Assembly (NCBI GenBank): GCA_019054805.1
Contig: JAHQIY010000017.1
Coordinates: forward strand, 1,736,001 to 1,800,000
DNA from: Brachionus manjavacas
Lineage: Eukaryota; Rotifera; Eurotatoria; Ploima; Brachionidae
Direction of reading: 5' to 3'
Length of the DNA stretch: 64,000 nucleotides
The notes under the pieces were generated by a model that was given only the letters and a program-made list of their open reading frames with translations, did no database searches and was not told the DNA's origin. Positions 14,701 to 48,612 of the stretch are shown here, in pieces. Position 1 is the stretch's first letter; every line of letters starts with the position of its first letter. The position numbers were made by a program, and so were the translations under genes.

Positions 14701-17700
14701 TATATTTTTCAATTCATTTCTCAATGAGCCCTGTTTACATGTTCAAAAAACTTAAAATTGTGTGTCCTCACTTCGTAATGCACTTAACTAAAATATATAA
14801 ATAAACCAATTAATTGATTTTAAAACAAACTTTAAAACAATACATTCTGGTTTAATTTGTTAACATTTCCTAGAGTCAAAGCTTTTCGGGATTTAAATTA
14901 TTTTATTCAAAAAAAATTAAAGTTTAAAAAATAAATCTAAAAGTCCAATAAATTGCTTTATTAAAAAATTTTGCCGTATATCAAATTAATGATTGATATA
15001 TTATCTTAAATGATACATAAATATTGATTGAAAGATCTGTATAAGTTTTGGTTTGCTTCCGAGACTTTTTAGAGGGTAAATTTTTCCACTTTGTTCATCC
15101 TATTTTCCACACAATCATTTATTGACTTTTGGTTTTCAATAGGAAGGTTAAGATAAATCAAACTTTGTAATTTTGGAATCTAAGATTCATTTAATATAAA
15201 ATAATTTTTAAAGTTTGTACTTTTTATTTTATACTAGAGGCAAAAGATTCTATTTTCCAGTACTTAGCATATTCTTAGTAGGTTCTTGGCAACATTTTGA
15301 TGTGTTTTTCAGAGGGTGACAATAAGACTAAATCTTCACATTAAGCAACAATGAACAAATTTGACTCACCAATCTTTACACCAACTTTCAAATCAGTTCA
15401 TAGGGATAACATCTAATAGATAAAAAAATTGAATAAATATGGAGATAATATTCCTCCTTAAACCCTTCAGTAATTAGAAACGGGGTACTTTTTTTCTTTG
15501 CCATTTTCGATGATCACTTATAATATTCATAAAACAATATCTATATAATATTCTCCACAAATAACTATTCATTTTTCCAATTAGCTTGTAGAAAAGTTCA
15601 GCACGCCATAGTTTATCAAATGCTTTACTGGCATCAAGACTTATTAGAATTAATCGAGATCCTCCTTGGCGATAATGATTGACTTAATCTTTTTCTAAAA
15701 AATAACTATGTTTTAATGAACTTTTTGTTTGTATCCAAATTGATTGCTATTTATGCCAAAAACATTCGTCTTGGTCAAAATAAGTGTATCGAAAATGGCT
15801 GCTAAACAGGTTGATACAGTGATAGGTCTCAAATCCGCAGGATCCTTTGATAATCCAGTTTTAGGAATCGGTTTTAATATGGAAATATTGAAATTCTCTG
15901 GGAAATGACCAATTTTAAAAGAATATTAAAAAAACCATTCAAGCAAAATGAGTAGATTAGTTGATGATCCATAAATAAAAATTCATTGCAGATTAGACCG
16001 TGAGCTGAACTTTACGACCAAGTATTTTGGGTATACCCTTAGTTTGTTCAATCGTGAAATAAAAAGGCGATTCACTATGATTATCAGGACTTGTGTTTTA
16101 TTTTTTTACATCTAATTCTACACTGTCTTGTTCTAAGTTATTAGGTCTATCAAAATTTCTTATGATAGTCTTCAAATTGACTAATGCTTGTCACTTCACT
16201 GTGTAATTAATTATTTTCTTTATGTTTTAGTTTTTTTCTGTCTAATTTTTAATCTGACTGAGGTCATTAGACTCAAAATTAATAAATTCTGAGTACAGTT
16301 TATGATTTGGACCACTAAAAATTTTAAAAATAAAAAAATGGCTTAAAAATTTTGAAAAAAGATTAAAAATTTGAACAGAAATTAAAAATGTTAAGACAAA
16401 GCGAAGCCTTAAAAAAAATTAATAACCGAATCGGATACCTTTTTTTTAAATAAAAATTAATTAGTTAAAGCAAAAACTAAATATTTTAGCAGCACAGGTA
16501 AATAAAATAAAAATAAATAAAAATTTAGTTGCACAGGTAATTGTTTTTAATTGACGAGTTTCTAACTGACTGTTTACACAACAGTTGAAAATAGATTTTT
16601 TTTCTAATTTAAATTTAATTAAATCTGGACCTGCAAAAATTAAAAGAGTGACAAAAAAAATTGAACATAAAATTTATTATTTATTAATTAAATAAGAAAA
16701 ATAAATCATTTGACTGAAACATCTTTTTTACTAATATCAACCTTAAGATCAAAATTGTTTGAGCTGTTCGTGTTCAAATTGCTGAAAATAGAATGATCGC
16801 GATTAAACAAATAATTCGACGATTCATTCAAGCTTTTCAACGATTCCAAATTAAAATTGTGTTTTTCAGCTTGAAATTCGTTCAACACAGACTTGTTGAC
16901 ATAACTTCTTCTCTCTTTCATTTTGCTATTCTGACTCGGCCTCACTTCATATTCAGCCGAGTCATTGGCCACCTTTTTATAGTAACCAAAAGCGCGCACT
17001 GGCGGCATGTAGTACCTGGGCGCATGGTTTTCCTTATTGAGCAAAGAATTCAAAAAGCCGGGCGGCACCTGGTCTATATTGATCAAAATTTTTGTGTCTT
17101 CGAATGGCTGCAAAATAGTCATTCGGTTCAGATTGTGCTTTTCAGTTTGTTCATACAAAATTTTATCTCTAGCTTGTTTAACTCTTTTCCTGTACTTTTC
17201 ACTACTGGTCAAGCTGTTCGAAAACATCACTGTGTTCAGGTACTCGTATTCTTTGATGATCGAGTGGTCTTTGCTGATTACATCTTTGTTGTCTAGATGG
17301 GACTCGCCGCGGACTGTGGCGCCTGCCGATGGTGGCTTGGTCTCGGCCGAGTTGAACCTGATCATTGATTTTATTTCTTGGACAGCTTTGCGATAGTGGT
17401 ACAGAGCTCCTTTGTGTTCTTTGGAATCTTTTGCTTTCTTAGAATTGGAGCGCTTGCAGGACTTGAACTCCAGCTTGGCAAGCTTTTGTTTGTGCTTGCG
17501 GATTTCGCTATTCATGTTCTCCACATACTTCAGGTCGACATTGTGGGCGTCGATGAGCAAATCGGCTGATTTGGACAAATGTTTGGGCTTTTTGTACGCA
17601 TCCAAAGCCTCGTCCTTTCTCGGACTAATGTTTTCCCTCAGCACCGACTTGACATTGGATATGTCAACCGGTCTGGTCAAGTTTAGTCTAGAAAATTCAT

Positions 17701-20700
17701 TGTAGGTTTTTTTTGAGTTTTCCATCTGGTCGAGAGGGTTCTTCATGGGCTCACTTAGTTTTAGACTCAGGTTGCTTTTGATTTTTTGCCGGTGCAGGTT
17801 CCGGTCGAGCTCGCAGCTCTCCGTAAAGCGAAGTTCATTGAATATCTTGGGCAACTGTTGAATTTGGTGCCGGTGCGGCACTATGGGCTGACCGCGTGTG
17901 GGCGCGAAATTCTTCAGCGGATTACTCTTGTAGTATTTGAGTTTTTGTTCCAGTTCGTCATAATTTTCCATTTTAAATTTACAAACATTAAAATTTACCG
18001 GTTTCTTCTTTTTTTCGCTCTTTTTTTTATTGTGTGTTGCCAATGCCAATTTACGAAGCTAATTACTTAGATACCTTTATTATTTAAGGTTTTGAATTAA
18101 AATAAATTTCCCCTTGAAAAATATAAAAAAATAAAATAAAATTTTTGAGCTAATACTTTTTTATTTTTAAACAATAAGCAAAAAGTAATTTAAGTGATTG
18201 TTTAATTGAAATACACAAGTGCCCTAAAGAGCTTTGGCTCCAATCGCTGGAATTGATTGAGCAAAAACGGGATGAAAGTGAGGCGAGCGATGATCCGGCA
18301 CCTTTGGCCAAGCTGAACTTGGTTTGTAAAATAAGGCCACCTGCCAACCAGTTTCGATTTCAGAGTATTTTTCGCCTTATTTAAATTAGAAATAATTAAT
18401 TGACAGTTTCTGAAGGCTCTAATCAGCAAAGTTTGACTCAGGTTTTAAAACAAGCCGAGCAAAGCCAGGATATAATTGGCACAGGATTGAATACGGTTTT
18501 TACCAAGGCTTTTATCGATCTCAAAAGTCAACTGGCTGAGAAATGTTTCAACCTGAAATTGACTGAAGAATCAATGAATCAAGTTAATGGCAACAAAAGC
18601 TATGATTTTCCTGGAAATAGAGTGTAAGTTTATTTTTTTTTATTGAAATAAATATGAAAATATTTTCAATTTAAAATTTAAACCTAATTAATAGGAATTA
18701 ATTTTGGGCTGTTAATAGGCAAGATGTTTTTACTATTTTGTATTCTAATTTTAAAGAATCATAATTATCATTTGCAGATTTTTTTTAAGATTAATATTTT
18801 AATTTTTTTACAGAAAACAACATTTCAAGGTCAATCAACATGCTAGTGTCCTTGTCTAAAAAGGACTGATTAACACTTCATTTATTTAAATTCATTACAA
18901 AATATAGATAAAATATAAAATTTAATTATATTATTTTAATAAAAAGTAAAAAATTTTATCAAAGTTAAAAAATACTGCTAAATTAAAAATTTTGCACTTT
19001 ATTTATTGATTTGAAAAACAAGTGTTTGCTTTAAATTAAAATAACATTTTTTTAGTCTAAACAATTTGGTTATAAACAAATCATTTATGCTTACATTTTT
19101 TCTTAATCATACCATCATGTATCCGCAATCCATTTTCTTGGAAAAGCGAAATGATCACCGATAAATTGATTTCTTTGCTAGTTTCAATAATATTTTTTAC
19201 CATACAAATACTGAAATATACCAAAAATTAAAAAAATAATTATAATTATCATGAATTTATTTATTTCTAATTAATATACTTACAGTAAAACAAAAAAATT
19301 TAATATTTACCAAAATTTAAATAAATTTACCAATTTTTGTTAAAGTGCTTTAAGTTTATTTGTTTCATTTTTTGGTTCTTTCCATGAGCATTTTAAAATT
19401 GCCTTTATAAACTCGAAATTACAAAAATTTCCATAATTTTACTGAAATTTACGCAATTCAATATTCAAGAGAAAAATTGAAACTTTATGTATTTTTAAAA
19501 CCTGGCTCCCAACTGACCCCCAATTTCAAATTATTGACCTCCTATATTGTTGTGGAGAATTTCAGGAGTTTTCTAAAAATGCATTTAGTTCTTGCTCAGG
19601 AAGCATGGATTTTGAGATATTTCAAAAAATTCATAATAATTTAGAAAATTTGATTTTTAATATTTATATTTTTTGATTTATTAAGCGACCAAATTTAAAT
19701 CTTGATGCTAAAAAAAGTTGTTAATGAACAAGATCGAGTGCTAATGTAAAAGTGGTGTTTCAATATGAACATTATTTTATTTTTTTTTTGCATCAAGATT
19801 TAAATTAAAAAAAAATTTTTTAATTTTCAAAAAGTGCAGAAATTCCAAACTGACATTTTAATATTTTTAGAAATATTTTTTATCAAATTTAAACATAAAT
19901 TGTATTTATTTAGTAATTTTGTTTAGAAATTCAAATAAAAAAAAAGATTAAATACTTGTTCAAAATTTGTTCAGAAATTAATCTTTTTGGTCCAAAAATA
20001 ACTAGTAATTGAAGATTTTCTATAGATTAAAAATAATACTTCAACTTAACGATACTCATTCTTCAGCATCTTACCGCATAACTCAAGATATTAAATTACA
20101 ACATAATGAGAAAAGAATCATGCTCAAAATTATTTATATTATCTAAGATACAAATTGTAAAAGAAATACAAATATAATTTGAAAAAATTTAAAAGAACCA
20201 AATGATTTTAAATCTGTGGAAAATAGAATGGGAAATAAAGTGAATAAAAAACTTAAAGGTAAAAAGGTTCTTAATTTTAAGTAGCATTTGGGATCAACTC
20301 TATGAAGGTGAACGGGGCTTGAAATTACACATTTTCATATCTCATAAGAATAATCAATTAAAAAATTAAATATTAGAATATTATGATTATTATTTATTTA
20401 TTTATTTTTTGCACCGAGCTAGGGCTTCATCAGAATAAATTGAAAAAAATAAAATCAAAATCAAAAATAAAATTAAAGTTAATAATATGAGTTAAAAAAA
20501 TCAAAATAAATTAAATAAGCTAAAAGATTTGATTCAATTTTTTAAATACTGGTGACATAAAATACTGGACCCAAAAATTTTTTTTCTTGTCACACTTTTA
20601 ATTGCAGTACTTGATCTGATCACATATTAAGCTACCAGTGTTGGTCACATAACAGGTGGATAATAAGTTGGCAACACATTAGGTGAACAACAGGTTAAAT

Positions 20701-22172
20701 ATGCGGTCAGACTCCTTTATCAATTTAACTTTAATATAAGATCTAAAAGAAGAAAAATATTATTTTGATATATTATAAAAATTGTACAATTAATTCTCTT
20801 TGATGTAATTATAAGTGCAACAATTTGTCTATTTTAGAGAACACAAAATTTTCCTATAAGACAGCATTGGTTTACTCTTTAATAAATACTAAACATAACC
20901 AAATACTGTTGAACAACTTAGAAGGAGCTACATCCATTAAATTAGATTTAGTTTTTAAAATAAAAAAAATTTTCTGATATCAATTAATATCAAAATTTAT
21001 TTTAGAACTGCTGAGTTTATTTTTCTCCCTGCAAATAAACTAATATGGGCTGCCAACAACGATGGAAGTGACAATGTGACTAGCATAGCGGTCTGCTGGA
21101 ACCATTCAAATCAAATATATTTGTATCCCTTAGGCAAAGTTTCAAAAGGTAAGAGCAAAAAAATTTTTTAAAAATAAATTTTTTCTTTTTCTTTTAGAGC
21201 TTGAATCAAAATTTGAGTGTGCTCTTCCATTTTCATCTCAAATAAGCCAATTTGAGACGACCAAGTGCAGTAATCTTCTTGCCGTTTCACTCAAAGACAA
21301 TAACATAGTCGTGTTCGATTTGAATATGGGAATCGAACGGACATGTGTTCATCTCCCAGATAGTGAAATAATCCGACAAATATATTTCATGCCCAAAAGT
21401 GCTCCAAGCACATCATTTTTGATAGAAAACTCGACTTTACTCAAAGTTGAATCCGAACTTGTTTGTTTGACAAGTGTTGGAAATCTGTACAGCATTGATT
21501 GTACTTTAAACTCTGGAAATAAACTAAGGCATTTGTTTAACCCTCAGTAAGTGTTTAATTTTTTTTATTTTAATTTTTTTGATATTTTATAGTAAATAAA
21601 AAAATATTCAAGGCTAGCAAGCAAGGATGATAAATTAATCTTTATAAAGCCAATTCATAGTGATCCTAATCTGGTAAGTTTTTTTAACTTAAATTAGATT
21701 GCTTCTAATTATTTAAAGATAATGGCAGTTGGTGAAACCAAAAAATTGTTTTTATTTGGAATGGAAAAATCCCAACTCTTGTGTCAGCTTGACCAAAATG
21801 AAGTGACAATAGAATTGGATAATATAGAGCTTAATTTTTCACTAAAGTGCCACAATTTATTCGTGAAGGGAACAATTTCTGAAAGTGGTAGGCTAGTTTG
21901 TCATTCAGTAAAATCCGTTGCCGATTTGAACGGATATTTAAATACGATGGCACCCATTATGGCCAATTGTCTGCCAATAAATGCTCATGTTAATGATCGT
22001 GTCAAGATTCTCTTAAAAAATAAGTAAATGATTATTTTTGTTATTATTTTAGCTTTGAATTTTTTATTTTTTTTCCTAAAGAAGTGATGAACATCAGGAC
22101 CGAAGAAATAGACTCAAAAGTGTATGGAATGAGCTCAGTGACTTTAGGAATTATTCTAAACCTAATCATTAA
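11769..22172 (+). CDS. WDR93: WDR93 homologue (axonemal WD-repeat protein), multi-exon
   Basis: WDR93 (Chlamydomonas FAP297) is known from the ciliary central apparatus. Placed exons are 11769-11896, 11948-12074, 12125-12350, 12396-12463, 12522-12597, 18179-18364, 18407-18623, 21006-21148, 21198-21546, 21613-21673, 21719-22023 and 22082-22172; phases agree except across the gap between 18623 and 21006. There, exon-like sequence at 18812-18860 and 20838-20950 could not be joined with confidence. Identity rests on the N-terminal FLKDPDLYRDNLPQPYR (human FKDPEMVFDSLPQPYR), EIHKCPKELWLQ (human EVYRLPKDSWL), SIAVCWNHSNQIYLYPL (human GIHWTRSHNFFLYSL) and a charged C-terminus. The fifth intron (12598-18178) spans 5.6 kb and holds LINE pieces and another gene. 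Exons from 18179 onward recur twice downstream; this first copy is the one contiguous with the 5' exons. Confidence 0.85.
12855..13440 (-). mobile_element. LINE reverse-transcriptase fragment (jockey/CR1-like)
   Basis: Minus-strand translation gives pieces typical of a non-LTR retrotransposon RT: YTPVPLTSVPCMIMEG, LIKYGLIALQQHG and VVLMDFAKAFDKESHRAL (the last is motif A with its first catalytic Asp). The frame contains stops, so this is dead. It lies inside the long WDR93 intron. Confidence 0.85.
13441..15555. other. Intronic AT-rich stretch
   Basis: Part of the 5.6-kb WDR93 intron. I see no gene, structured RNA or repeat family here apart from homopolymers. Confidence 0.5.
15560..16050 (-). 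mobile_element. LINE reverse-transcriptase fragment, second family
   Basis: Minus-strand translation shows FPENFNISILKPIPKTG, LRPITVSTCLAAIFD, NSNQFGYK and LILISLDASKAFDKLW, in the usual order of non-LTR RT blocks up to motif A. Frames are interrupted. The wording differs from the 12.9-13.4 kb fragment, so it is a different lineage. It lies in the same WDR93 intron. Confidence 0.8.
16706..17971 (-). CDS. Unrecognised lysine/asparagine-rich protein nested in a WDR93 intron
   Basis: A single open frame of 421 residues runs antisense within the 5.6-kb WDR93 intron. The first ATG is at 17971; the frame stays open upstream to 18049 (TTG) but with no earlier ATG. The GC content is clearly above its surroundings, which supports real coding. 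It is hydrophilic and basic, with no membrane segment or signal peptide. Short coiled-coil-like stretches occur around DLKYVENMNSEIRKHKQKL. A proline-bearing block, INIDQVPPGFLNSLLN then PRYYMPPVRAFGYYKK, looks most conserved. I do not recognise the family; a cilium-associated role would be a guess from its host gene only. Lack of introns in an intron-rich region could mean a retrocopy origin. Confidence 0.75.
   Translation of the reverse strand: MENYDELEQKLKYYKSNPLKNFAPTRGQPIVPHRHQIQQLPKIFNELRFTESCELDRNLHRQKIKSNLSLKLSEPMKNPLDQMENSKKTYNEFSRLNLTRPVDISNVKSVLRENISPRKDEALDAYKKPKHLSKSADLLIDAHNVDLKYVENMNSEIRKHKQKLAKLEFKSCKRSNSKKAKDSKEHKGALYHYRKAVQEIKSMIRFNSAETKPPSAGATVRGESHLDNKDVISKDHSIIKEYEYLNTVMFSNSLTSSEKYRKRVKQARDKILYEQTEKHNLNRMTILQPFEDTKILINIDQVPPGFLNSLLNKENHAPRYYMPPVRAFGYYKKVANDSAEYEVRPSQNSKMKERRSYVNKSVLNEFQAEKHNFNLESLKSLNESSNYLFNRDHSIFSNLNTNSSNNFDLKVDISKKDVSVK
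20385..20530 (-). mobile_element. LINE 3' tail relic (copy in first S segment)
   Basis: (ATTT)n, then GCACCGAGCTAGGGCTTCAT, then an A-rich tail. This is the complement of the 3' end of the LINE at 51.05-52.11 kb. It lies in a WDR93 intron. The same relic occurs in the other two S segments at about 27085-27235 and 33795-33950. Confidence 0.75.
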
Positions 22173-22329
22173 TGACTAAGGAATTATTTCAATTCAAAAC
22201 TCAGAAAATATTTATTAAAAGTTAAATAAAAATTAATGGCAAAGCATTTACCACTTTTTAATTTTATTTTTTTAATTTTAATTCCAATTAATCTTCTAAT
22301 GATGCTTTCAAGGCTTTTCGTCCTTTTTT

Positions 22330-22841
22330 TATAGTAGTAGTATTGGTAGTTTTGACTGTAACTGGCTAGCAAGCGAGTGTGCTGATAAGGCACACTAAGA
22401 CAGCCGATGTGATTGATTGCTGCTCATCAAGCAATCATTGCCTGCTTTATAACTGTTAACATTGGAGACTTCAACTAATTTATTTGGCAGCGAGTTCCAT
22501 TTGCTAGCGGTTCTGTTGAGAAAAAAAAGTTATCTCTCTATGTTAGAGCCTCGAAATTTCTGTGTGATATTTGAAAAAGTGGCTTCTTCCTTGGATTTTG
22601 GTGACATTAAAATTTTTGCTTTTTTCAACCAATTCTATTCCATGCATGAACTTGTATAATTGAATTAGATCACCTCTTTTTCTTCTTTCCACCAGATTTG
22701 GAATGTTCAGACTTAAGAATTGGAGACCATACAAGCACAGCAAATTCCAAAAGAGGACGAACAAAAGTTAAATACAATGATCTAGATAATTAACAATCAA
22801 AACGAGCGAATGCTTTCCTGATGCGACTCAAAATTTTATTT
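22330..22841 (-). mobile_element. CR1/jockey-type LINE, C-terminal RT relic interrupted by a PLE
   Basis: Minus-strand reading gives PNLVERRKRGDLIQLYKFMHGIE and FFLNRTASKWNSLPN, which are standard C-terminal wording of a non-LTR RT ORF, ending near 22396. The relic stops abruptly at 22841 where the PLE starts. The same boundary recurs at 29545. The relic follows the WDR93 stop codon and would lie in or just past its 3' UTR. Confidence 0.85.
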
Positions 22842-24853
22842 TATTCTAATGAAAATTATTCTCAATTATTAAATGAACATTTAAATAATAATGTTTCATA
22901 CATAAAATTAAACTTTGATCCTTTAAATTCTACAATTTTAGAAATAAATTTAAAAATCGAAAAATTGTTTAAAGAGGAACTTATTTCTAAAAAACTTTTT
23001 GATCTATTAGAAATTGAAAAAGATTCAAAATTAGGCTCCTTTAGAATTCTACCAAAACTTCATAAACATAAATTTAATATTAGACCTATAATTAATTGTA
23101 AAAACCATCCTACTTCTAAATTGGCATTTTTGTTAGATATGATTATTCAACCTTTTGTTAAAAAAACTAGTTCTTTTATCCAAGATTCTCAAAACTTAAT
23201 TCAAAAACTTGACTCAATTAAATTTCCAGAAAATAGTGAGTTATATTCATGCGATTTTGAGTCTCTTTATACAAATATTGATCATAGAGATGCACAATTT
23301 ATCATATGTGATTTTATGAAAGATAAAATAGAATCTAAACACTTAAATATTCAAGCTTTTGCTACAATTCTTAACTTAGTTCTAAATAACAACGTATTTA
23401 AAAGTTCGGACAATTTTTATAAACAAGTTGTTGGAATAGCTATGGGTTCAAAATGTGGCCCTTCAATTGCAAATTTATTTCTTTCTATTTATGAAACAAA
23501 ATGGTTAGCAATAAATTTACCACTTCATTATTCAAGATTCATAGATGATATTTTTATAATATCAGTAAATGGAATTTCTAACCTAGAATCAGCTTTTGGT
23601 AATTTGAAACTTAATATTACTAAAAGTAATCCAGTGATTTTTCTAGATTTAAATATATATTTTGATATGATCACTTGTAAACTTAATTTTAGTTTATATA
23701 TAAAACCAACAAATACTTTTTGCTTTTTACTCTTTTCATCAAATCATCCTGAATTTATATTTGATAATATTCCAAAATCTATTTTTATAAGAGTAAGAAG
23801 AATTTGTTCATCTTTAATAGATTATTTATCATTTGCTAGACTCTATACATTTGAGTTAGTTAAAAGAGGATATTCCTTTAAAATTGTTTGTTCTCAATCA
23901 CGAATGGTTAGTAATATCCCTAGGAAAGACTTAATTCCATATAAGAAAAAGAAAAATTTGTAAATCAAAACAATATTTATCTTTGCATTGAATATGATAG
24001 GAATATAATAAATTTAAAAAGCTTAATTAAAAATGTTTGGAATCACTCTTTTAAAGATCATCCTGTATTAAAAAATGCTCAATTATTAGTTCTTAATAAG
24101 ATGCAATTAAATTTAGGATCAATTTTAATCCATAATTTTCCTTTTCCTAAAGTGGAACATTTTTCTTTCAAGAAATGTCAAGACCTGAACTGCTTAGTCT
24201 GTAGATTTTCTAATGAAGATTTCAAAATTTATCTAAAAGAACAATTTTTTCTACCGATTGAGTCTAAGTCTAGTTGTAACTCAACTGATTGTGTCTACAT
24301 TATTTTATGTATTAAATGCAAAGTCTACTATATTGGACAAACAAATTGTTTTAAAAGAAGATTTAATGAACATTTAAACGGTATACAAAAATATACTCCA
24401 TATGTAAATCACAAGTCAAATGTTTCAATTCATTTTAACTTGAATGAACACGATTTTACAGTAGATTTACGTTTTTTTATTTACAAAGTCAATGTGGATT
24501 TGGAAGAAAGACTAAAAAATGAAACGTTTTTAATACACATGTTTATTAAATTAGGAATTGAGCTTCTTAATGAAGTCATTCCCTCAATTAGCACGTTAAC
24601 ATTTTTAAATTACATATAGTAATTGAAATTTCATCATAAAAATTTTTTTTTTTTTTTTTTTCATTTTTTTCCTTTTATTTCGAAATTTTAAAACGTGTTT
24701 TTTTTTTTTTTTACTATAAAAGCATCAAAAATTTAATATTTTTTTCTCCATTGCCTGAAGAAGACTAAAAGTCGAAATAGCTATCGCAAATTTAAATAAA
24801 AACATTATAAATTAACTTGTTTTAGTTTTTATTTCAAAAAAATTATTCCGATT
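22842..24853 (+). mobile_element. Penelope-like element, GIY-YIG type, 5'-truncated (copy 1)
   Basis: PLEs are retroelements with a telomerase-like RT and, in this class, a C-terminal GIY-YIG endonuclease. The RT core shows LGSFRILPKLHK, CDFESLYTNI (motif A), GIAMGSKCGPSIANLF (motif B) and SRFIDDIFII (motif C, the DD pair), then a C-terminal CVYIILCIKCKVYYIGQTN with FKRRFNEH. The usual N-terminal region is missing and the coding frame runs straight out of LINE sequence at the left edge, so the element is 5'-truncated. Its frame is broken about once. A 3' tail with T-runs carries a hammerhead-like motif. It occupies the junction between two WDR93 segment copies. Confidence 0.92.
24751..24789 (+). 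ncRNA. Hammerhead-ribozyme-like motif in the PLE tail (copy 1)
   Basis: Stem I is TTGC/GCAA. The core is CTGAAGA and GAAA (canonical CUGANGA...GAAA). Stem II is GACT/AGTC with loop AAA. Stem III is a minimal ATA/TAT with a two-base loop, followed by C as the cleavage-site H base. One extra A separates the core from stem II, so activity is uncertain. PLEs are known to carry hammerheads with very short stem III. Confidence 0.55.
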
Positions 24854-24894
24854 AAAATTTTTGAGCTAATACTTTTTTATTTTTAAACAATAAG

Positions 24895-27800
24895 CAAAAA
24901 GTAATTTAAGTGATTGTTTAATTGAAATACACAAGTGCCCTAAAGAGCTTTGGCTCCAATCGCTGGAATTGATTGAGCAAAAACGGGATGAAAGTGAGGC
25001 GAGCGATGATCCGGCACCTTTGGCCAAGCTGAACTTGGTTTGTAAAATAAGGCCACCTGCCAACCAGTTTCGATTTCAGAGTATTTTTCGCCTTATTTAA
25101 ATTAGAAATAATTAATTGACAGTTTCTGAAGGCTCTAATCAGCAAAGTTTGACTCAGGTTTTAAAACAAGCCGAGCAAAGCCAGGATATAATTGGCACAG
25201 GATTGAATACGGTTTTTACCAAGGCTTTTATCGATCTCAAAAGTCAACTGGCTGAGATATGTTTCAACCTGAAATTGACTGAAGAATCAATGAATCAAGT
25301 TAATGGCAACAAAAGCTATGATTTTCCTGGAAATAGAGTGTAAGTTTATTTTTTTTTATTGAAATAAATATGAAAATATTTTTAAATTAAAATTTAAACC
25401 TAATTAATAGGAATTAATTAAAGATGTTTTTCCTATTTTGCATTCTAATTTTAAAGAATCATAATTATCATTTGCAGATTTTTTTTAAGATTAATATTTT
25501 AATTTTTTTACAGAAAACAACATTTCAAGGTCAATCAACATGCTAGTGTCCTTGTCTAAAAAGGACTGATTAACACTTCATTTATTTAAATTCATTACAA
25601 AATATAGATAAAATATAAAATTTAATTATATTATTTTAATAAAAAGTAAAAAATTTTATCAAAGTTAAAAAATACTGCTAAATTAAAAATTTTGCACTTT
25701 ATTTATTGATTTGAAAAACAAGTGTTTGCTTTAAATTAAAATAACATTTTTTTTAGTCTAAACAATTTGGTTATAAACAAATCATTTATGCTTACATTTT
25801 TTCTTAATCATACCATCATGTATCCGCAATCCATTTTCTTGGAAAAGCGAAATGATCACCGATAAATTGATTTCTTTGCTAGTTTCAATAATATTTTTTA
25901 CCATACAAATACTGAAATATACCAAAAATTAAAAAAATAATTATAATTATCATGAATTTATTTATTTCTAATTAATATACTTACAGTAAAACAAAAAATT
26001 TAATATTTACCAAAATTTAAATAAATTTACCAATTTTTGTTAAAGTGCTTTAAGTTTATTTGTTTCATTTTTTGGTTCTTTCCATGAGCATTTTAAAATT
26101 GCCTTTATAAACTCGAAATTACAAAAATTTCCATAATTTTACTGAAATTTACGCAATTCAATATTCAAGAGAAAAATTGAAACTTTATGTATTTTTAAAA
26201 CCTGGCTCCCAACTGACCCCCAATTTCAAATTATTGACCTCCTATATTGTTGTGGAGAATTTCAGGAGTTTTCTAAAAATGCATTTAGTTCTTGCTCAGG
26301 AAGCATGGATTTTGAGATATTTCAAAAAATTCATAATAATTTAGAAAATTTGATTTTTAATATTTATATTTTTTGATTTATTAAGCGACAAAATTTAAAT
26401 CTTGATGCTAAAAAAAGTTTTTAATGAACAAGATCGAGTGCTAATGTAAAAGTGGTGTTTCAATATGAACATTATTTTATTTTTTTTGCATCAAGATTTA
26501 AATTAAAAAAAAAATTTTTTAATTTTCAAAAAGTGCAGAAATTCCAAACTGACATTTTAATATTTTTAGAAATATTTTTTATCAAATTTAAACATAAATT
26601 GTATTTATTTAGTAATTTTGTTTAGAAATTCAAATAAAAAAAAAGATTAAATACTTGTTCAAAATTTGTTCAGAAATTAATCTTTTTGGTCCAAAAATAA
26701 CTAGTAATTGAAGATTTTCTATAGATTAAAAATAATACTTCAACTTAACGATACTCATTCTTCAGCATCTTACCGCATAACTCAAGATATTAAATTACAA
26801 CATAATGAGAAAAGAATCATGCTCAAAATTATTTATATTATCTAAGATACAAATTGTAAAAGAAATACAAATATAATTTGAAAAAATTTAAAAGAACCAA
26901 ATGATTTTAAATCTGTGGAAAATAGAATGGGAAATAAAGTGAATAAAAAACTTAAAGGTAAAAAGGTTCTTAATTTTAAGTAGCATTTGGGATCAACTCT
27001 ATGAAGGTGAACGGGGCTTGAAATTACACATTTTCATATCTCATAAGAATAATCAATTAAAAAATTAAATATTAGAATATTATGATTATTATTTATTTAT
27101 TTATTTTTTGCACCGAGCTAGGGCTTCATCAGAATAAATTGAAAAAAATAAAATCAAAATCAAAAATAAAATTAAAGTTAATAATATGAGTTAAAAAAAA
27201 ATCAAAATAAATTAAATAAGCTAAAAGATTTGATTCAATTTTTTAAATACTGGTGACATAAAATACTGGACCCAAAAATTTTTTCTTGTCACACTTTTAA
27301 TTGCAGTACTTGATCTGATCACATATTAAGCTACCAGTGTTGGTCACATAACAGGTGGATAATAAGTTGGCAACACATTAGGTGAACAACAGGTTAAATA
27401 TGCGGTCAGACTCCTTTATCAATTTAACTTTAATATAAGATCTAAAAGAAGAAAAATATTATTTTGATATATTATAAAAATTGTACAATTAATTCTCTTT
27501 GATGTAATTATAAGTGCAACAATTTGTCTATTTTAGAGAACACAAAATTTTCCTATAAGACAGCATTGGTTTACTCTTTAATAAATACTAAACATAACCA
27601 AATACTGTTGAACAACTTAGAAGGAGCTACATCCATTAAATTAGATTTAGTTTTTAAAATAAAAAAAATTTTCTGATATCAATTAATATCAAAATTTATT
27701 TTAGAACTGCTGAGTTTATTTTTCTCCCTGCAAATAAACTAATATGGGCTGCCAACAACGATGGAAGTGACAATGTGACTAGCATAGCGGTCTGCTGGAA

Positions 27801-28873
27801 CCATTCAAATCAAATATATTTGTATCCCTTAGGCAAAGTTTCAAAAGGTAAGAGCAAAAAAAAATTTTTTAAAAATAAATTTTTTCTTTTTCTTTTAGAG
27901 CTTGAATCAAAATTTGAGTGTGCTCTTCCATTTTCATCTCAAATAAGCCAATTTGAGACGACCAAGTGCAGTAATCTTCTTGCCGTTTCACTCAAAGACA
28001 ATAACATAGTCGTGTTCGATTTGAATATGGGAATCGAACGGACATGTGTTCATCTCCCAGATAGTGAAATAATCCGACAAATATATTTCATGCCCAAAAG
28101 TGCTCCAAGCACATCATTTTTGATAGAAAACTCGACTTTACTCAAAGTTGAATCCGAACTTGTTTGTTTGACAAGTGTTGGAAATCTGTACAGCATTGAT
28201 TGTACTTTAAACTCTGGAAATAAACTAAGGCATTTGTTTAACCCTCAGTAAGTGTTTAATTTTTTTATTTTAATTTTTTTGATATTTTATAGTAAATAAA
28301 AAAATATTCAAGGCTAGCAAGCAAGGATGATAAATTAATCTTTATAAAGCCAATTCATAGTGATCCTAATCTGGTAAGTTTTTTTTAACTTAAATTAGAT
28401 TGCTTCTAATTATTTAAAGATAATGGCAGTTGGTGAAACCAAAAAATTGTTTTTATTTGGAATGGAAAAATCCCAACTCTTGTGTCAGCTTGACCAAAAT
28501 GAAGTGACAATAGAATTGGATAATATAGAGCTTAATTTTTCACTAAAGTGCCACAATTTATTCGTGAAGGGAACAATTTCTGAAAGTGGTAGGCTAGTTT
28601 GTCATTCAGTAAAATCCGTTGCCGATTTGAACGGATATTTAAATACGATGGCACCCATTATGGCCAATTGTCTGCCAATAAATGCTCATGTTAATGATCG
28701 TGTCAAGATTCTCTTAAAAAATAAGTAAATGATTATTTTTGTTATTATTTTAGCTTTGAATTTTTTATTTTTTTTCCTAAAGAAGTGATGAACATCAGGA
28801 CCGAAGAAATAGACTCAAAAGTGTATGGAATGAGCTCAGTGACTTTAGGAATTATTCTAAACCTAATCATTAA
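24895..28873 (+). pseudogene. WDR93 3'-half duplicate, second copy
   Basis: This repeats WDR93 from exon 6 to the stop: exon 6 begins near 24895, exon 7 is 25123-25339, the exon with GVCWNHS-type wording begins at 27705, exon 13 begins at 28420, and the stop is at 28871-28873. Exons 1-5 and a promoter are absent; PLE sequence lies directly upstream. Splice sites and reading phases are kept. One coding change versus copy 1 is seen in exon 7 (Lys to Ile, codon at 25257). It could be a dead partial copy or serve as an alternative 3' end if spliced from exon 5. Confidence 0.85.
27085..27235 (-). mobile_element. LINE 3' tail relic (second S segment)
   Basis: Duplicate of the tail at 20385-20530, with the same ACCGAGCTAGGGCTTCAT core. 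It was carried along by the segment duplication and is not an independent insertion. Confidence 0.7.
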
Positions 28874-29034
28874 TGACTAAGGAATTATTTCAATTCAAAA
28901 CTCAGAAAATATTTATTAAAAGTTAAATAAAAATTAATGGCAAAGCATTTACCACTTTTTAATTTTATTTTTTTAATTTTAATTCCAATTAATCTTCTAA
29001 TGATGCTTTCAAGGCTTTTCGTCCTTTTTTTTTA

Positions 29035-29545
29035 TAGTAGTAGTATTGGTAGTTTTGACTGTAACTGGCTAGCAAGCGAGTGTGCTGATAAGGCACACTA
29101 AGACAGCCGATGTGATTGATTGCTGCTCATCAAGCAATCATTGCCTGCTTTATAACTGTTAACATTGGAGACTTCAACTAATTTATTTGGCAGCGAGTTC
29201 CATTTGCTAGCGGTTCTGTTGAGAAAAAAAAAGTTATCTCTCTATGTTAGAGCCTCGAAATTTCTGTGTGATATTTGAAAAAGTGGCTTCTTCCTTGGAT
29301 TTTGGTGACATTAAAATTTTTGCTTTTTTCAACCAATTCTATTCCATGCATGAACTTGTATAATTGAATTAGATCACCTCTTTTTCTTCTTTCCACCAGA
29401 TTTGGAATGTTCAGACTTAAGAATTGGAGACCATACAAGCACAGCAAATTCCAAAAGAGGACGAACAAAAGTTAAATACAATGATCTAGATAATTAACAA
29501 TCAAAACGAGCGAATGCTTTCCTGATGCGACTCAAAATTTTATTT
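29035..29545 (-). mobile_element. LINE C-terminal RT relic (second S segment)
   Basis: Duplicate of the relic at 22330-22841, with the same right boundary against PLE sequence. It shares T at 29184 and C at 29517 with the first copy, where the third copy has G and A. Confidence 0.82.
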
Positions 29546-31555
29546 TATTCTAATGAAAATTATTCTCAATTATTAAATGAACATTTAAATAATAATGTTT
29601 CATACATAAAATTAAACTTTGATCCTTTAAATTCTACAATTTTAGAAATAAATTTAAAAATCGAAAAATTGTTTAAAGAGGAACTTATTTCTAAAAAACT
29701 TTTTGATCTATTAGAAATTGAAAAAGATTCAAAATTAGGCTCCTTTAGAATTCTACCAAAACTTCATAAACATAAATTTAATATTAGACCTATAATTAAT
29801 TGTAAAAACCATCCTACTTCTAAATTGGCATTTTTGTTAGATATGATTATTCAACCTTTTGTTAAAAAAACTAGTTCTTTTATCCAAGATTCTCAAAACT
29901 TAATTCAAAAACTTGACTCAATTAAATTTCCAGAAAATAGTGAGTTATATTCATGCGATTTTGAGTCTCTTTATACAAATATTGATCATAGAGATGCACA
30001 ATTTATCATATGTGATTTTATGAAAGATAAAATAGAATCTAAACACTTAAATATTCAAGCTTTTGCTACAATTCTTAACTTAGTTCTAAATAACAACGTA
30101 TTTAAAAGTTCGGACAATTTTTATAAACAAGTTGTTGGAATAGCTATGGGTTCAAAATGTGGCCCTTCAATTGCAAATTTATTTCTTTCTATTTATGAAA
30201 CAAAATGGTTAGCAATAAATTTACCACTTCATTATTCAAGATTCATAGATGATATTTTTATAATATCAGTAAATGGAATTTCTAACCTAGAATCAGCTTT
30301 TGGTAATTTGAAACTTAATATTACTAAAAGTAATCCAGTGATTTTTCTAGATTTAAATATATATTTTGATATGATCACTTGTAAACTTAATTTTAGTTTA
30401 TATATAAAACCAACAAATACTTTTTGCTTTTTACTCTTTTCATCAAATCATCCTGAATTTATATTTGATAATATTCCAAAATCTATTTTTATAAGAGTAA
30501 GAAGAATTTGTTCATCTTTAATAGATTATTTATCATTTGCTAGACTCTATACATTTGAGTTAGTTAAAAGAGGATATTCCTTTAAAATTGTTTGTTCTCA
30601 ATCACGAATGGTTAGTAATATCCCTAGGAAAGACTTAATTCCATATAAGAAAAAGAAAAAATTTGTAAATCAAAACAATATTTATCTTTGCATTGAATAT
30701 GATAGGAATATAATAAATTTAAAAAGCTTAATTAAAAATGTTTGGAATCACTCTTTTAAAGATCATCCTGTATTAAAAAATGCTCAATTATTAGTTCTTA
30801 ATAAGATGCAATTAAATTTAGGATCAATTTTAATCCATAATTTTCCTTTTCCTAAAGTGGAACATTTTTCTTTCAAGAAATGTCAAGACCTGAACTGCTT
30901 AGTCTGTAGATTTTCTAATGAAGATTTCAAAATTTATCTAAAAGAACAATTTTTCTACCGATTGAGTCTAAGTCTAGTTGTAACTCAACTGATTGTGTCT
31001 ACATTATTTTATGTATTAAATGCAAAGTCTACTATATTGGACAAACAAATTGTTTTAAAAGAAGATTTAATGAACATTTAAACGGTATACAAAAATATAC
31101 TCCATATGTAAATCACAAGTCAAATGTTTCAATTCATTTTAACTTGAATGAACACGATTTTACAGTAGATTTACGTTTTTTTATTTACAAAGTCAATGTG
31201 GATTTGGAAGAAAGACTAAAAAATGAAACGTTTTTAATACACATGTTTATTAAATTAGGAATTGAGCTTCTTAATGAAGTCATTCCCTCAATTAGCACGT
31301 TAACATTTTTAAATTACATATAGTAATTGAAATTTCATCATAAAAATTTTTTTTTTTTTTTTTTTCATTTTTTTCCTTTTATTTCGAAATTTTAAAACGT
31401 GTTTTTTTTTTTTTTACTATAAAAGCATCAAAAATTTAATATTTTTTCTCCATTGCCTGAAGAAGACTAAAAGTCGAAATAGCTATCGCAAATTTAAATA
31501 AAAACATTATAAATTAACTTGTTTTAGTTTTTATTTCAAAAAAATTATTCCGATT
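29546..31555 (+). mobile_element. Penelope-like element, GIY-YIG type, 5'-truncated (copy 2)
   Basis: Near-identical to the PLE at 22842-24853, with the same left and right boundaries, RT motifs and tail. Its frame is also broken about once, at a different place, so the two breaks arose after duplication or are read errors in homopolymers. Identical edges in both copies show they descend from one insertion and are not two independent ones. Confidence 0.92.
31453..31491 (+). ncRNA. Hammerhead-ribozyme-like motif in the PLE tail (copy 2)
   Basis: The same 39-nt motif as at 24751-24789, unchanged: stem I TTGC/GCAA, CTGAAGA and GAAA core, stem II GACT/AGTC, minimal stem III. Confidence 0.55.
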
Positions 31556-31596
31556 AAAATTTTTGAGCTAATACTTTTTTATTTTTAAACAATAAG

Positions 31597-34500
31597 CAAA
31601 AAGTAATTTAAGTGATTGTTTAATTGAAATACACAAGTGCCCTAAAGAGCTTTGGCTCCAATCGCTGGAATTGATTGAGCAAAAACGGGATGAAAGTGAG
31701 GCGAGCGATGATCCGGCACCTTTGGCCAAGCTGAACTTGGTTTGTAAAATAAGGCCACCTGCCAACCAGTTTCGATTTCAGAGTATTTTTCGCCTTATTT
31801 AAATTAGAAATAATTAATTGACAGTTTCTGAAGGCTCTAATCAGCAAAGTTTGACTCAGGTTTTAAAACAAGCCGAGCAAAGCCAGGATATAATTGGCAC
31901 AGGATTGAATACGGTTTTTACCAAGGCTTTTATCGATCTCAAAAGTCAACTGGCTGAGATATGTTTCAACCTGAAATTGACTGAAGAATCAATGAATCAA
32001 GTTAATGGCAACAAAAGCTATGATTTTCCTGGAAATAGAGTGTAAGTTTATTTTTTTTATTGAAATAAATATGAAAATATTTTTAAATTAAAATTTAAAC
32101 CTAATTAATAGGAATTAATTAAAGATGTTTTTCCTATTTTGCATTCTAATTTTAAAGAATCATAATTATCATTTGCAGATTTTTTTAAGATTAATATTTT
32201 AATTTTTTTACAGAAAACAACATTTCAAGGTCAATCAACATGCTAGTGTCCTTGTCTAAAAAGGACTGATTAACACTTCATTTATTTAAATTCATTACAA
32301 AATATAGATAAAATATAAAATTTAATTATATTATTTTAATAAAAAGTAAAAAATTTTATCAAAGTTAAAAAATACTGCTAAATTAAAAATTTTGCACTTT
32401 ATTTATTGATTTGAAAAACAAGTGTTTGCTTTAAATTAAAATAACATTTTTTTTAGTCTAAACAATTTGGTTATAAACAAATCATTTATGCTTACATTTT
32501 TTCTTAATCATACCATCATGTATCCGCAATCCATTTTCTTGGAAAAGCGAAATGATCACCGATAAATTGATTTCTTTGCTAGTTTCAATAATATTTTTTA
32601 CCATACAAATACTGAAATATACCAAAAATTAAAAAAAATAATTATAATTATCATGAATTTATTTATTTCTAATTAATATACTTACAGTAAAACAAAAAAA
32701 TTTAATATTTACCAAAATTTAAATAAATTTACCAATTTTTGTTAAAGTGCTTTAAGTTTATTTGTTTCATTTTTTGGTTCTTTCCATGAGCATTTTAAAA
32801 TTGCCTTTATAAACTCGAAATTACAAAAATTTCCATAATTTTACTGAAATTTACGCAATTCAATATTCAAGAGAAAAATTGAAACTTTATGTATTTTTAA
32901 AACCTGGCTCCCAACTGACCCCCAATTTCAAATTATTGACCTCCTATATTGTTGTGGAGAATTTCAGGAGTTTTCTAAAAATGCATTTAGTTCTTGCTCA
33001 GGAAGCATGGATTTTGAGATATTTCAAAAAAATTCATAATAATTTAGAAAATTTGATTTTTAATATTTATATTTTTTGATTTATTAAGCGACAAAATTTA
33101 AATCTTGATGCTAAAAAAAAGTTTTTAATGAACAAGATCGAGTGCTAATGTAAAAGTGGTGTTTCAATATGAACATTATTTTATTTTTTTTTTGCATCAA
33201 GATTTAAATTAAAAAAAAAATTTTTTAATTTTCAAAAAGTGCAGAAATTCCAAACTGACATTTTAATATTTTTAGAAATATTTTTTATCAAATTTAAACA
33301 TAAATTGTATTTATTTAGTAATTTTGTTTAGAAATTCAAATAAAAAAAAAGATTAAATACTTGTTCAAAATTTGTTCAGAAATTAATCTTTTTGGTCCAA
33401 AAATAACTAGTAATTGAAGATTTTCTATAGATTAAAAATAATACTTCAACTTAACGATACTCATTCTTCAGCATCTTACCGCATAACTCAAGATATTAAA
33501 TTACAACATAATGAGAAAAGAATCATGCTCAAAATTATTTATATTATCTAAGATACAAATTGTAAAAGAAATACAAATATAATTTGAAAAAATTTAAAAG
33601 AACCAAATGATTTTAAATCTGTGGAAAATAGAATGGGAAATAAAGTGAATAAAAAACTTAAAGGTAAAAAGGTTCTTAATTTTAAGTAGCATTTGGGATC
33701 AACTCTATGAAGGTGAACGGGGCTTGAAATTACACATTTTCATATCTCATAAGAATAATCAATTAAAAAATTAAATATTAGAATATTATGATTATTATTT
33801 ATTTATTTATTTTTTGCACCGAGCTAGGGCTTCATCAGAATAAATTGAAAAAAATAAAATCAAAATCAAAAATAAAATTAAAGTTAATAATATGAGTTAA
33901 AAAAAAATCAAAATAAATTAAATAAGCTAAAAGATTTGATTCAATTTTTTTAAATACTGGTGACATAAAATACTGGACCCAAAAATTTTTTTTCTTGTCA
34001 CACTTTTAATTGCAGTACTTGATCTGATCACATATTAAGCTACCAGTGTTGGTCACATAACAGGTGGATAATAAGTTGGCAACACATTAGGTGAACAACA
34101 GGTTAAATATGCGGTCAGACTCCTTTATCAATTTAACTTTAATATAAGATCTAAAAGAAGAAAAATATTATTTTGATATATTATAAAAATTGTACAATTA
34201 ATTCTCTTTGATGTAATTATAAGTGCAACAATTTGTCTATTTTAGAGAACACAAAATTTTCCTATAAGACAGCATTGGTTTACTCTTTAATAAATACTAA
34301 ACATAACCAAATACTGTTGAACAACTTAGAAGGAGCTACATCCATTAAATTAGATTTAGTTTTTAAAATAAAAAAAAATTTTCTGATATCAATTAATATC
34401 AAAATTTATTTTAGAACTGCTGAGTTTATTTTTCTCCCTGCAAATAAACTAATATGGGCTGCCAACAACGATGGAAGTGACAATGTGACTAGCATAGCGG

Positions 34501-35585
34501 TCTGCTGGAACCATTCAAATCAAATATATTTGTATCCCTTAGGCAAAGTTTCAAAAGGTAAGAGCAAAAAAAAATTTTTTAAAAATAAATTTTTTCTTTT
34601 TCTTTTAGAGCTTGAATCAAAATTTGAGTGTGCTCTTCCATTTTCATCTCAAATAAGCCAATTTGAGACGACCAAGTGCAGTAATCTTCTTGCCGTTTCA
34701 CTCAAAGACAATAACATAGTCGTGTTCGATTTGAATATGGGAATCGAACGGACATGTGTTCATCTCCCAGATAGTGAAATAATCCGACAAATATATTTCA
34801 TGCCCAAAAGTGCTCCAAGCACATCATTTTTGATAGAAAACTCGACTTTACTCAAAGTTGAATCCGAACTTGTTTGTTTGACAAGTGTTGGAAATCTGTA
34901 CAGCATTGATTGTACTTTAAACTCTGGAAATAAACTAAGGCATTTGTTTAACCCTCAGTAAGTGTTTAATTTTTTTTATTTTAATTTTTTTGATATTTTA
35001 TAGTAAATAAAAAAATATTCAAGGCTAGCAAGCAAGGATGATAAATTAATCTTTATAAAGCCAATTCATAGTGATCCTAATCTGGTAAGTTTTTTTTTAA
35101 CTTAAATTAGATTGCTTCTAATTATTTAAAGATAATGGCAGTTGGTGAAACCAAAAAATTGTTTTTATTTGGAATGGAAAAATCCCAACTCTTGTGTCAG
35201 CTTGACCAAAATGAAGTGACAATAGAATTGGATAATATAGAGCTTAATTTTTCACTAAAGTGCCACAATTTATTCGTGAAGGGAACAATTTCTGAAAGTG
35301 GTAGGCTAGTTTGTCATTCAGTAAAATCCGTTGCCGATTTGAACGGATATTTAAATACGATGGCACCCATTATGGCCAATTGTCTGCCAATAAATGCTCA
35401 TGTTAATGATCGTGTCAAGATTCTCTTAAAAAATAAGTAAATGATTATTTTTGTTATTATTTTAGCTTTGAATTTTTTATTTTTTTTCCTAAAGAAGTGA
35501 TGAACATCAGGACCGAAGAAATAGACTCAAAAGTGTATGGAATGAGCTCAGTGACTTTAGGAATTATTCTAAACCTAATCATTAA
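31597..35585 (+). pseudogene. WDR93 3'-half duplicate, third copy
   Basis: Third copy of WDR93 exon 6 onward, with the stop at 35583-35585. It again lacks exons 1-5. It carries the same exon 7 Lys-to-Ile change as the second copy, yet differs from copies 1 and 2 in the LINE relic beyond its stop. An A-run length change in the intron near 34370 leaves a longer open frame across an intron; this is incidental. Beyond 36253 the original single-copy flank resumes. Confidence 0.85.
33795..33950 (-). mobile_element. LINE 3' tail relic (third S segment)
   Basis: Duplicate of the tail at 20385-20530, carried by the segment duplication. Confidence 0.7.
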
Positions 35586-35744
35586 TGACTAAGGAATTAT
35601 TTCAATTCAAAACTCAGAAAATATTTATTAAAAGTTAAATAAAAATTAATGGCAAAGCATTTACCACTTTTTAATTTTATTTTTTTAATTTTAATTCCAA
35701 TTAATCTTCTAATGATGCTTTCAAGGCTTTTCGTCCTTTTTTTT

Positions 35745-36420
35745 ATAGTAGTAGTATTGGTAGTTTTGACTGTAACTGGCTAGCAAGCGAGTGTGCTGAT
35801 AAGGCACACTAAGACAGCCGATGTGATTGATTGCTGCTCATCAAGCAATCATTGCCTGCTTTATAACTGTTAACATTGGAGACTTCAACTAATTGATTTG
35901 GCAGCGAGTTCCATTTGCTAGCGGTTCTGTTGAGAAAAAAGTTATCTCTCTATGTTAGAGCCTCGAAATTTCTGTGTGATATTTGAAAAAGTGGCTTCTT
36001 CCTTGGATTTTGGTGACATTAAAATTTTTGCTTTTTTCAACCAATTCTATTCCATGCATGAACTTGTATAATTGAATTAGATCACCTCTTTTTCTTCTTT
36101 CCACCAGATTTGGAATGTTCAGACTTAAGAATTGGAGACCATACAAGCACAGCAAATTCCAAAAGAGGACGAACAAAAGTTAAATACAATGATCTAGATA
36201 ATTAACAATCAAAACGAGCGAATGATTTCCTGATGCGACTCAAAATTTTATTTGCTTTATTTGTAGCCTCTATCACTTGATTTTTCCATTTAAGATTTGT
36301 ATTGAAAATAACTCCAAGTTCTCTTTCGGTTTCTGACGTTGATAACTACTTACCATTAATAAAATAAGAGAATTTATGATCATAATGTTTTTATGATCTT
36401 TAAAAAAAAAAAAATAAATT
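35745..36420 (-). mobile_element. LINE C-terminal RT relic, uninterrupted copy
   Basis: Here the LINE relic runs on past 36253, where the other two copies meet a PLE. Minus-strand wording continues as SETERELGVIFNTNLKWKN and KILSRIRKSFARFDC, the normal RT C-terminal order. Frames are broken. This copy shows the state of the right edge of the segment without a PLE. Confidence 0.82.
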
Positions 36421-37439
36421 TCATAAATGTATACCGTAAACCGTGTTAAAGACTCCAATACACAAGCCCAAATCCAACATTTCTGGTGGCACAAAGTTTT
36501 ATCAGTTGTTACTATTTACTGAGCAAATTTTGGCCCTAAAGAAATTTAGCTTTGGCTTTTATTAATATTTTATTTTTGCTTTTAATACTAAATTTCAGAA
36601 GGCTAGGATATAATGAATGTCAAAAAAGCTAACTCGTATAGCAAAAAAAATAAGTTTAAAACAACAAAAAAAATTTAATAAAATAAAAAAAGAAACAAAA
36701 AATTATTGTTGCACCAGAGCTTTTGGAAAATAAAATAAAAATTGTCAGTTGTCAATTGAATACGGCCTATTTATATTTTAGAATTTAAGGCAATTATATT
36801 TTATATTTCTAGCTTGAACTGGGACATTACACAAATCAAAACGAATTGCAAAAAAAATAATTGATAATAAAATTAATTCTCTTGAAAAAGTAAAGGAGGT
36901 ACAACAACTTTATATCCAACTTTATTTGTTAATCTCAAAAATCCAAATTTAATTAGAAAGTACTTTATCCTCTTGGTAATCAACCCTTGATCTTTTGTTT
37001 AGACTCTTCTTGAATCTCTTGACTGTTGCTTCAAACTTTGACTTGATTTTTGGTGAGCCGATATTAAACTTGTTTTGGTTTCCAAAATAGTAGAAGCTCT
37101 TTTGAAAGCCATCCTTCTAAAATTGAATCGGTATTGAAGGTTCATTAAAACTCATCATAAAAGGATAAAAATAAATTTTAAAAAAAGAAAACAACATCAA
37201 ATTCATTAAAGTTCAATCATTCAGGTTTTTATCACAAGATATGGTGTTTTTAAAATATTTAATTTAAAAAATTAAATTTTTTCGACTCCAATTTCTGAAA
37301 ATAATAGAAATTATAAAATCATTTTATTATCAAAAAAAGCTCTTTTTTATCTTCATTATTCCGGCAGCGGAGCAACGGGTAATACTTTCTAATAACTAAT
37401 GTTTAAAGGTTTAATTCTGTACTACTGTAGTATTATATT
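36421..37439. other. Intergenic stretch between WDR93 copies and H3
   Basis: AT-rich, without a clear complete gene. It holds one possible small gene remnant on the minus strand, listed separately. Confidence 0.5.
36949..37155 (-). pseudogene. Possible small gene remnant or terminal exon
   Basis: On the minus strand, ATG at 37155 opens MSFNEPSIPIQF, meets one TAG, and then continues in the same frame for 55 residues (KDGFQKSFYYFGNQNKF..., rich in Lys and Arg) to a TAA at 36949. An AG just before AAGGATGG could instead be a splice acceptor, making this the last exon of an unseen gene. I do not recognise the product. Confidence 0.35.
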
Positions 37440-37573
37440 AGTAAAGAAATATTTGGAGACCAAGTCAAAATATTTACTGTACTGTAAGCTTTTGTAATTG
37501 ATCATTTAAAGGGCAGAAGATGGGAAATACAAAGTTGTCTTTAGATTTGCTCTATTTAGTAGGAAATATATTT

Positions 37574-37589
37574 GGTCTTTAAAAAGACC
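37574..37589 (-). terminator. Histone 3' stem-loop
   Basis: Downstream of the H3 stop, on the minus strand: GGTCTT, loop TTTA, AAGACC. This is the six-base-pair stem and four-base loop of replication-dependent histone mRNAs, bound by SLBP and processed with U7. The animal consensus is GGYYCU-UHUH-ARRRCC; this stem and loop fit that shape. Confidence 0.82.
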
Positions 37590-37638
37590 GGGGGTTTAAA
37601 TATTTATAAATGTACAACATTAGTTGGCCAAATAGAAT

Positions 37639-38088
<450 letters not shown>

Positions 38089-38142
38089 TTAGTGAAAATG
38101 TTGAAACAAGTTGTTTTGTGGTTTGGTCCACAAATCTAGCTC

Positions 38143-38156
38143 TATTTATACTCTTT
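38143..38156 (-). promoter_or_regulatory. TATA box of H3 copy A
   Basis: On the minus strand GAGTATAAATAGAG lies about 95 bp before the ATG, and the same element precedes the other H3 copy. It is a good match to a metazoan TATA box. Confidence 0.75.
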
Positions 38157-38464
38157 TAATTAGAATCAAACAAAGTCAAGGTTATTTGCCAATATTTTCA
38201 AATCAAATCAAATTTATTTATTTTATTCTAACTGAAAAATTATGAATTTTTCGTTTTCTAAACTAAAGTTCACGCAATCCCATTCTTTTATTCACTCTCT
38301 CACACAAAACCAATTTTTTCTCACTCTGCTCTTTTAAACCCAACTAGATCAATTTGCTCACCCAACTATTCAAAGACTTTACAATCCTTAACATTTGGCT
38401 TTGAAAGCATACAACTGTAATAGGGATTGTTTTTTAGCTTACCTATAAACATTTTTCACAAATA

Positions 38465-38770
38465 CTAGATAGCAACTTAAATAAAGAGGAAAAAGTCAAA
38501 TCCTTAGAAATTACATTAGACTCAAAACTTACTTTTGGCCCAATGGTTGATGAATTAAAAGAGCGCTGTAATTCAAGGCTTAACTTAATAAAATATCTCA
38601 GAAGCTAACATCAAAAAAATACGAAAAATTTAAAATTCAGCAGTTAGATCTATTTTGAAGCTGATTTATGATACCCCCTCCAATATTATTCATCAAGATG
38701 TCTTCAATAAACAAAATCTACTGTTAATTGGTTTAATTCAATATTGAAGGAGCTTTAGAAATACCATTTT
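38465..38770 (+). mobile_element. LINE RT C-terminal fragment
   Basis: Plus-strand translation reads KSLEITLDSKLTFGPMVDEL then KERCNSRLNLIKYLRS, then SAVRSILKLIYDTPSNIIHQD after a frame change. It belongs to the same jockey-like family as the next LINE. It is degenerate and begins immediately at the edge of the H3 duplication arm. Confidence 0.78.
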
Positions 38771-40975: not shown

Positions 40976-41212
40976 TCTTTTATCATTATGTATGATGTAT
41001 TTTACATGTACATTTAGGTTTGATTATCAATATTCAATCAATATCTCAAGCTAATAAAGTTCCATGGTATCACAAGGTAAATTATGTTTTTTCATGAAAG
41101 CCAATTTCGTTGTTAGTTCTTTCGTTGCAGAAAAACATGAATGAACATGCTTTTGAAAATTTTGATTTTTTAATTTTTGGAAATTTTTTTTTTAGTTTAA
41201 AACTAATTAGAA

Positions 41213-48598: not shown

Positions 48599-48612
48599 AG
48601 TATAAATAGAGC
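48599..48612 (+). promoter_or_regulatory. TATA box of H3 copy B
   Basis: GAGTATAAATAGAG, about 95 bp before the ATG, identical to that of the other copy. The upstream 250 bp are shared with the other arm, so both genes should share regulation. Confidence 0.75.

Follow-up and report, generated by a model that had tools for sequence, protein, structure and literature searches.

Long target copies around a Penelope-like element and a part of a WDR93-like gene present three times in a Brachionus manjavacas contig

How can three copies of a host segment come to alternate with two copies of a retrotransposon when no element lies outside them? This question is raised by the window analysed here, a 64,000-nt AT-rich stretch (C17:1736001-1800000) of an assembly comprising 114 Mb in 61 contigs. 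The array S1-P1-S2-P2-S3 spans 18137-36253 in the assembly and is composed of three ~4.7-kb host segments (S), each holding portions of a WDR93-like gene and a LINE-like repeat, and of a Penelope-like element (PLE; P) that occurs twice. Its existence in the assembly was confirmed by self-BLAST, where 24853-36253 matched 18137-29545 at 99.4% and 31555-36253 matched 18137-22841 at 99.1%. Together with the mapping of the joins, this bears out the initial annotation, which had described three near-identical segments alternating with two 5′-truncated PLEs. The features are as follows, in positions of the window.

16706..18136, − strand: left flank, with a divergent 450-aa open frame (16706-18058) that has no Pfam match; DNA single copy up to 18136
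18137..22841, + strand: S1, first copy of the target segment, delimited by self-BLAST and the joins
18199..22176, + strand: WDR93-like gene part in S1 (PF21030; exon limits and end read by eye)
22842..24852, + strand: P1, 5′-truncated PLE with reverse transcriptase and GIY-YIG domains; its 3′ end CCGAT abuts the left edge of S2
22842-22843, + strand: two filler bases at the start of P1
24853..29545, + strand: S2, hybrid middle copy, left part S3-like and right part S1-like
29546..31554, + strand: P2, second copy of the PLE, with zero substitutions relative to P1
31555..36253, + strand: S3, last copy, with the native flank on its right
35744..36396, − strand: LINE-like dispersed repeat, unbroken across the right edge at 36253

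At the left boundary, 17700-18136 is present in one copy and 18137-18400 in three. For the right boundary, nine copies of the LINE-like repeat were compared. Eight of them align straight through 36253 and the ninth stops short, while none crosses the S1/P1 join, at which seven end exactly (22841); the right edge is therefore native, and the LINE runs on intact there, as had been annotated. No PLE is present at 18136 or 36254. This absence, also noted at the outset, leads us to reject a crossover between two pre-existing PLEs, which the initial annotation had likewise judged not to fit. The segments differ by 8/4683 (S1/S2), 10/4685 (S1/S3) and 2/4687 (S2/S3) substitutions; S1 and S3 are further distinguished by one 16-bp indel and by their unique flanks. 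P1 and P2 show 0/2006 substitutions, and their sole differences are four single-base indels in A or T runs. Outside the array, the window also contains a 1.0-kb inverted pair (37443-38454 and 48297-49302; 97.8% alike) whose arms each contain a 149-aa histone H3 open frame, and a tandem repeat with a period of 123 bp and 6.2 copies (57515-58274).

The gene in S had been called a host gene half, and this is roughly right for the part that is present, since the matches to the 321-position WDR93 profile start at position 115. The match to PF21030 positions 115-222 is just above the cut-off (E 1.6e-06), and that to positions 238-319 is below it. By eye, the first exon appears to start about 40 bp inside S, behind a plausible splice acceptor. 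The 5′ part was not found by Pfam search (E up to 0.1) on the + strand of 1-18136 and 36254-45000 or on the − strand of 10000-18136 and 36254-40000. Either the gene was already truncated, or the exons escaped detection, or the left edge of the array has its own history, the last of which may hold because the 5′ part was not found beside S1. A PDB sequence search using the WDR93-like exons gave no match.

The element encodes a reverse transcriptase (RT) domain (PF00078, E 2.4e-07 in P2, + strand) and, downstream of it, a GIY-YIG endonuclease domain (PF01541, E 7.7e-08; 30922-31323, + strand), and the 3′ end of the family is CCGAT. A copy on another contig, C13, is full-length (4043 bp) and carries identical 137-bp terminal direct repeats (pLTRs); relative to this copy, P1 and P2 are 5′-truncated and without the 5′ terminal repeat. 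With RT, GIY-YIG downstream of RT and pLTRs in the full-length copy, the family is a PLE with endonuclease. PLEs are often reported to carry hammerhead ribozymes. Nothing in the window reached the Rfam gathering score, and the Rfam search at two loci (L049 and L050) returned one sub-threshold microRNA match only. The Cys-rich stretch seen by eye ahead of GIY-YIG recalls the Neptune group as it is described in the accessible text of PMC3846280. Other PLE families occur in regular arrays elsewhere in the assembly: five places about 4.25 kb apart on the − strand of C23:312598-329959, and ten places in 3.8-kb steps and both orientations in C25:475155-505578.

Since P is on the + strand, its 3′ end meets S at the left edge and its truncated 5′ end meets S at the right edge, an order that target duplication of the length of S would give. 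We consider, with a probability of about 0.75, that the PLE inserted once, duplicating about 4.7 kb of the target in doing so, and that an unequal crossover came later. A nick made by the PLE in one strand at the left boundary of S would have primed reverse transcription, which would account for the element's 3′ end lying against S. The 5′-truncated cDNA would then have been joined by its free end to a break about 4.7 kb downstream rather than across the same nick; this distant break may have been one in the sister chromatid or one at a replication fork. The expected product is left flank-S-P-S-right flank. Two such chromosomes would later have paired out of register, with the left S opposite the right S, and an unequal crossover there would generate S-P-S-P-S with a hybrid middle S.

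A search of the assembly with the 3′-terminal 153 bp of P yielded 16 candidates; all were scored, and 17 matches were obtained. Five matches were at least 98% identical, the threshold by which a PLE was defined as young, and these fall at three loci: two in the window, two at C13 (its terminal repeats) and one on contig C3. The loci outside the window correspond to C13:2397980-2403020 and C3:1208550-1211350. Long direct repeats of the target abut both PLE ends at all three loci, measuring ~4.7 kb in the window, ~0.5 kb at C13 (about 493-500 bp) and ~0.4 kb at C3 (405 bp). The PLE is thus bounded as by a target-site duplication, with copies of 405 bp to about 4.7 kb in place of the typical short length of about 8-20 bp. 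The proposal that a single PLE had been joined between two copies of its target is supported by this shared anatomy, and the young C13 and C3 target copies indicate that long target duplication is a recurrent outcome.

Dispersed repeats at the edges show the origin of these flanks. At the C13 left edge, four of four repeat copies extend across by 12-26 bp, and all four end exactly at the PLE/target join; at the C3 right edge, five of five extend across by 37-41 bp, and at the target/PLE join all ends fall within 17 bp, one copy overrunning the join by 5 bp. Because the repeat copies cross the outer edge and end at the PLE join, the flanks at the young loci are target DNA, the native outer edge being shown once per locus (window right, C13 left, C3 right). 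The target sequence is different at each of the three loci, and among the best 40 candidates scored no full stretch turned up away from its own locus, those of C13 and C3 being present at two places each. We therefore rejected the idea that the flanks were carried by the element.

Read by eye, every 3′ join falls at CCG(AT); the shared bases there number two at C13, two at C3 and none in the window. The 5′ joins, also read by eye, share six bases at C13 and three at C3, and that of the window shares none and has a 2-base filler. The initial annotation had taken AAAATTTT at both edges of the segment as a sign of microhomology. It was found within S near both ends and is absent from the PLE ends, and it was accordingly rejected as junction microhomology.

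S could have been tandemly duplicated first by ordinary repair, with the PLE inserted later exactly at the copy junction; the order is not directly visible, and both PLE joins fit any insertion at that point. We compared substitutions only, and the counts are small. In the window, the target copies S1/S3 differ at 10/4685 positions and P1 differs from the C13 element at 5/2007; the C3 target pair differs at 4/393, excluding 12 bp at the join that hold three more differences, and the C3 and C13 PLEs differ at 18/1977; the C13 target pair differs at 0/492. Because target copies and PLEs diverge by similar amounts, the duplication and the insertion look simultaneous, and these counts suggest that they arose together, as expected if a single PLE was joined between two target copies. 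Had the duplication come first, the target copies should predate the PLE, and three loci would each have to show this coincidence, so that we regard this order as unlikely.

Insertion with target duplication followed by unequal crossover predicts S1 and S3 as outer copies, S2 as their hybrid, and P1 and P2 without substitutions. Among the ten substitution markers of S, the first eight are S1-odd, the last two S3-odd and none S2-odd, placing a single switch point in S2 between 19720 and 22481. Under random order, the 8-then-2 split would arise with a probability of 1 in 45, and the lack of an S2-odd marker with one of 0.017 if the three copies were equally likely. The substitutions of S2 thus show what is expected of a product of non-allelic homologous recombination, a middle copy combining the two outer ones through one switch. 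Homopolymer single-base indels among the S copies deviate from the crossover pattern; their appearance suggests slippage or sequencing noise. The second amplifying step postulated in the initial annotation is therefore supported, in that the left part of S2 follows S3 and the right part S1, and one unequal crossover between two S-P-S chromosomes may well have made it.

The same copies, 99% alike and known from the assembly alone, could in principle be an assembly artefact, either in the third copy or in the entire array; a phase switch could produce the hybrid middle copy, and the single-base indels in runs resemble noise. This is improbable, as S1 and S3 differ by their ten substitutions and 16-bp indel and meet different unique flanks, and an artefact here would leave C13 and C3 unexplained. 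A further reading is highly improbable: the PLE would have inserted at the right edge of S with a short target duplication or none, and non-allelic exchange with a PLE-less chromosome would then have brought its 3′ end against the left edge of S. By our map this also yields left flank-S-P-S-right flank without an outer PLE, but the exchange would have to fall precisely at the 3′ end of the PLE in three separate cases, each with its 3′ join at CCG(AT).

We next consider how general the preferred reading, insertion with long target duplication, may be within the family. A fourth young copy, on C10, is 98.7% identical to the C13 element and without its 3′ end. It has no long direct repeat, its flanks having in common only an 84% dispersed-repeat stretch, and it gives the target-duplication reading no support. 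The older loci with 3′-end matches number 11, of which 10 were counted (L052, L053, L054, L055, L056, L019, L026, L030, L032 and L033), leaving out C1:6818094; L055 ends about 35 bp before the PLE 3′ end. Also excluded were L051, L057 and L023, which are without the 3′ end, and L015, L018 and L022, which repeat L053, L054 and L056. None of the 10 has long direct repeats within flanks of 0.24-5.2 kb, a range in which longer or deleted target copies could be missed. This result speaks against long target duplication as a family-wide rule; the older copies could have lost their repeats by recombination between them, or the young subfamily could have changed.

As controls, long direct repeats were absent from LINE copies (0/4, these being the loci among 11 with both ends inside the locus), whose longest exact string common within 30-40 bp of the ends was 6 bp. 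They were likewise absent from three dispersed copies of a second PLE family (0/3), where the 700-709 bp downstream of the 3′ end had no copy starting at the PLE edge on the other side. One second-family PLE, at C11:2870368-2878076, has a downstream flank that recurs at 99% on C9:3685834-3689483. A 33-34 bp stretch occurs twice on each contig, at a spacing of 3616 bp on C9 and of 7676 bp on C11, and the difference of 4060 bp fits a PLE, so the C9 stretch may be the empty site of the C11 element.

It is conceivable, though we would bet against it, that the family integrates by a wide stagger or distant capture and as a rule duplicates hundreds to thousands of target bases. If so, every landing would be a small segmental duplication able to seed gene amplification by unequal crossover, and a retrotransposon would duplicate genes in place, introns included, without carrying them. 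The completion of PLE integration is, to our knowledge, poorly known, and young insertions with 0.4-4.7 kb target copies make it testable, as nick spacing and cDNA capture become measurable. The array also illustrates what should follow, namely unequal crossover between the long repeats just created, and it points to a way in which genes could be duplicated in place by retrotransposons, with introns retained, outside cancer.

No description of kilobase target duplications by PLEs was found in open-licence PMC titles and abstract openings, which is weak evidence of absence. The R9 retrotransposons of rotifers reportedly make a target-site duplication of 126 bp. Their authors term it exceptionally long, in which R9 resembles the present family; R9 is rDNA-specific by title, and its duplication is much shorter than those described here. 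The Penelope elements of a bdelloid rotifer are similar in having RT and GIY-YIG domains, terminal repeats, frequent 5′ truncation, one 5′ join via microhomology and a role in host gene family growth, according to the parts of PMC3846280 available. In contrast, their target duplications are 8, 9 or 10 bp or none, and they move genes between their terminal repeats, whereas here the gene is duplicated in place (PMC3846280). A related mechanism is that of L1 insertions, which cause tandem duplications in human cancer genomes with the element at the junction, and for which the accessible text of PMC7058536 proposes capture of the cDNA by a further 3′ overhang that lies downstream in the sister chromatid. 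Both cases place a retroelement insertion at a tandem-duplication junction; the L1 case concerns tumours and 22.6 Mb (PMC7058536), whereas here a PLE is associated with heritable copies of 0.4-4.7 kb in the assembly, at three loci and from one family. We class the present case as the PLE equivalent of duplication mediated by a retroelement, seen repeatedly, at three loci.
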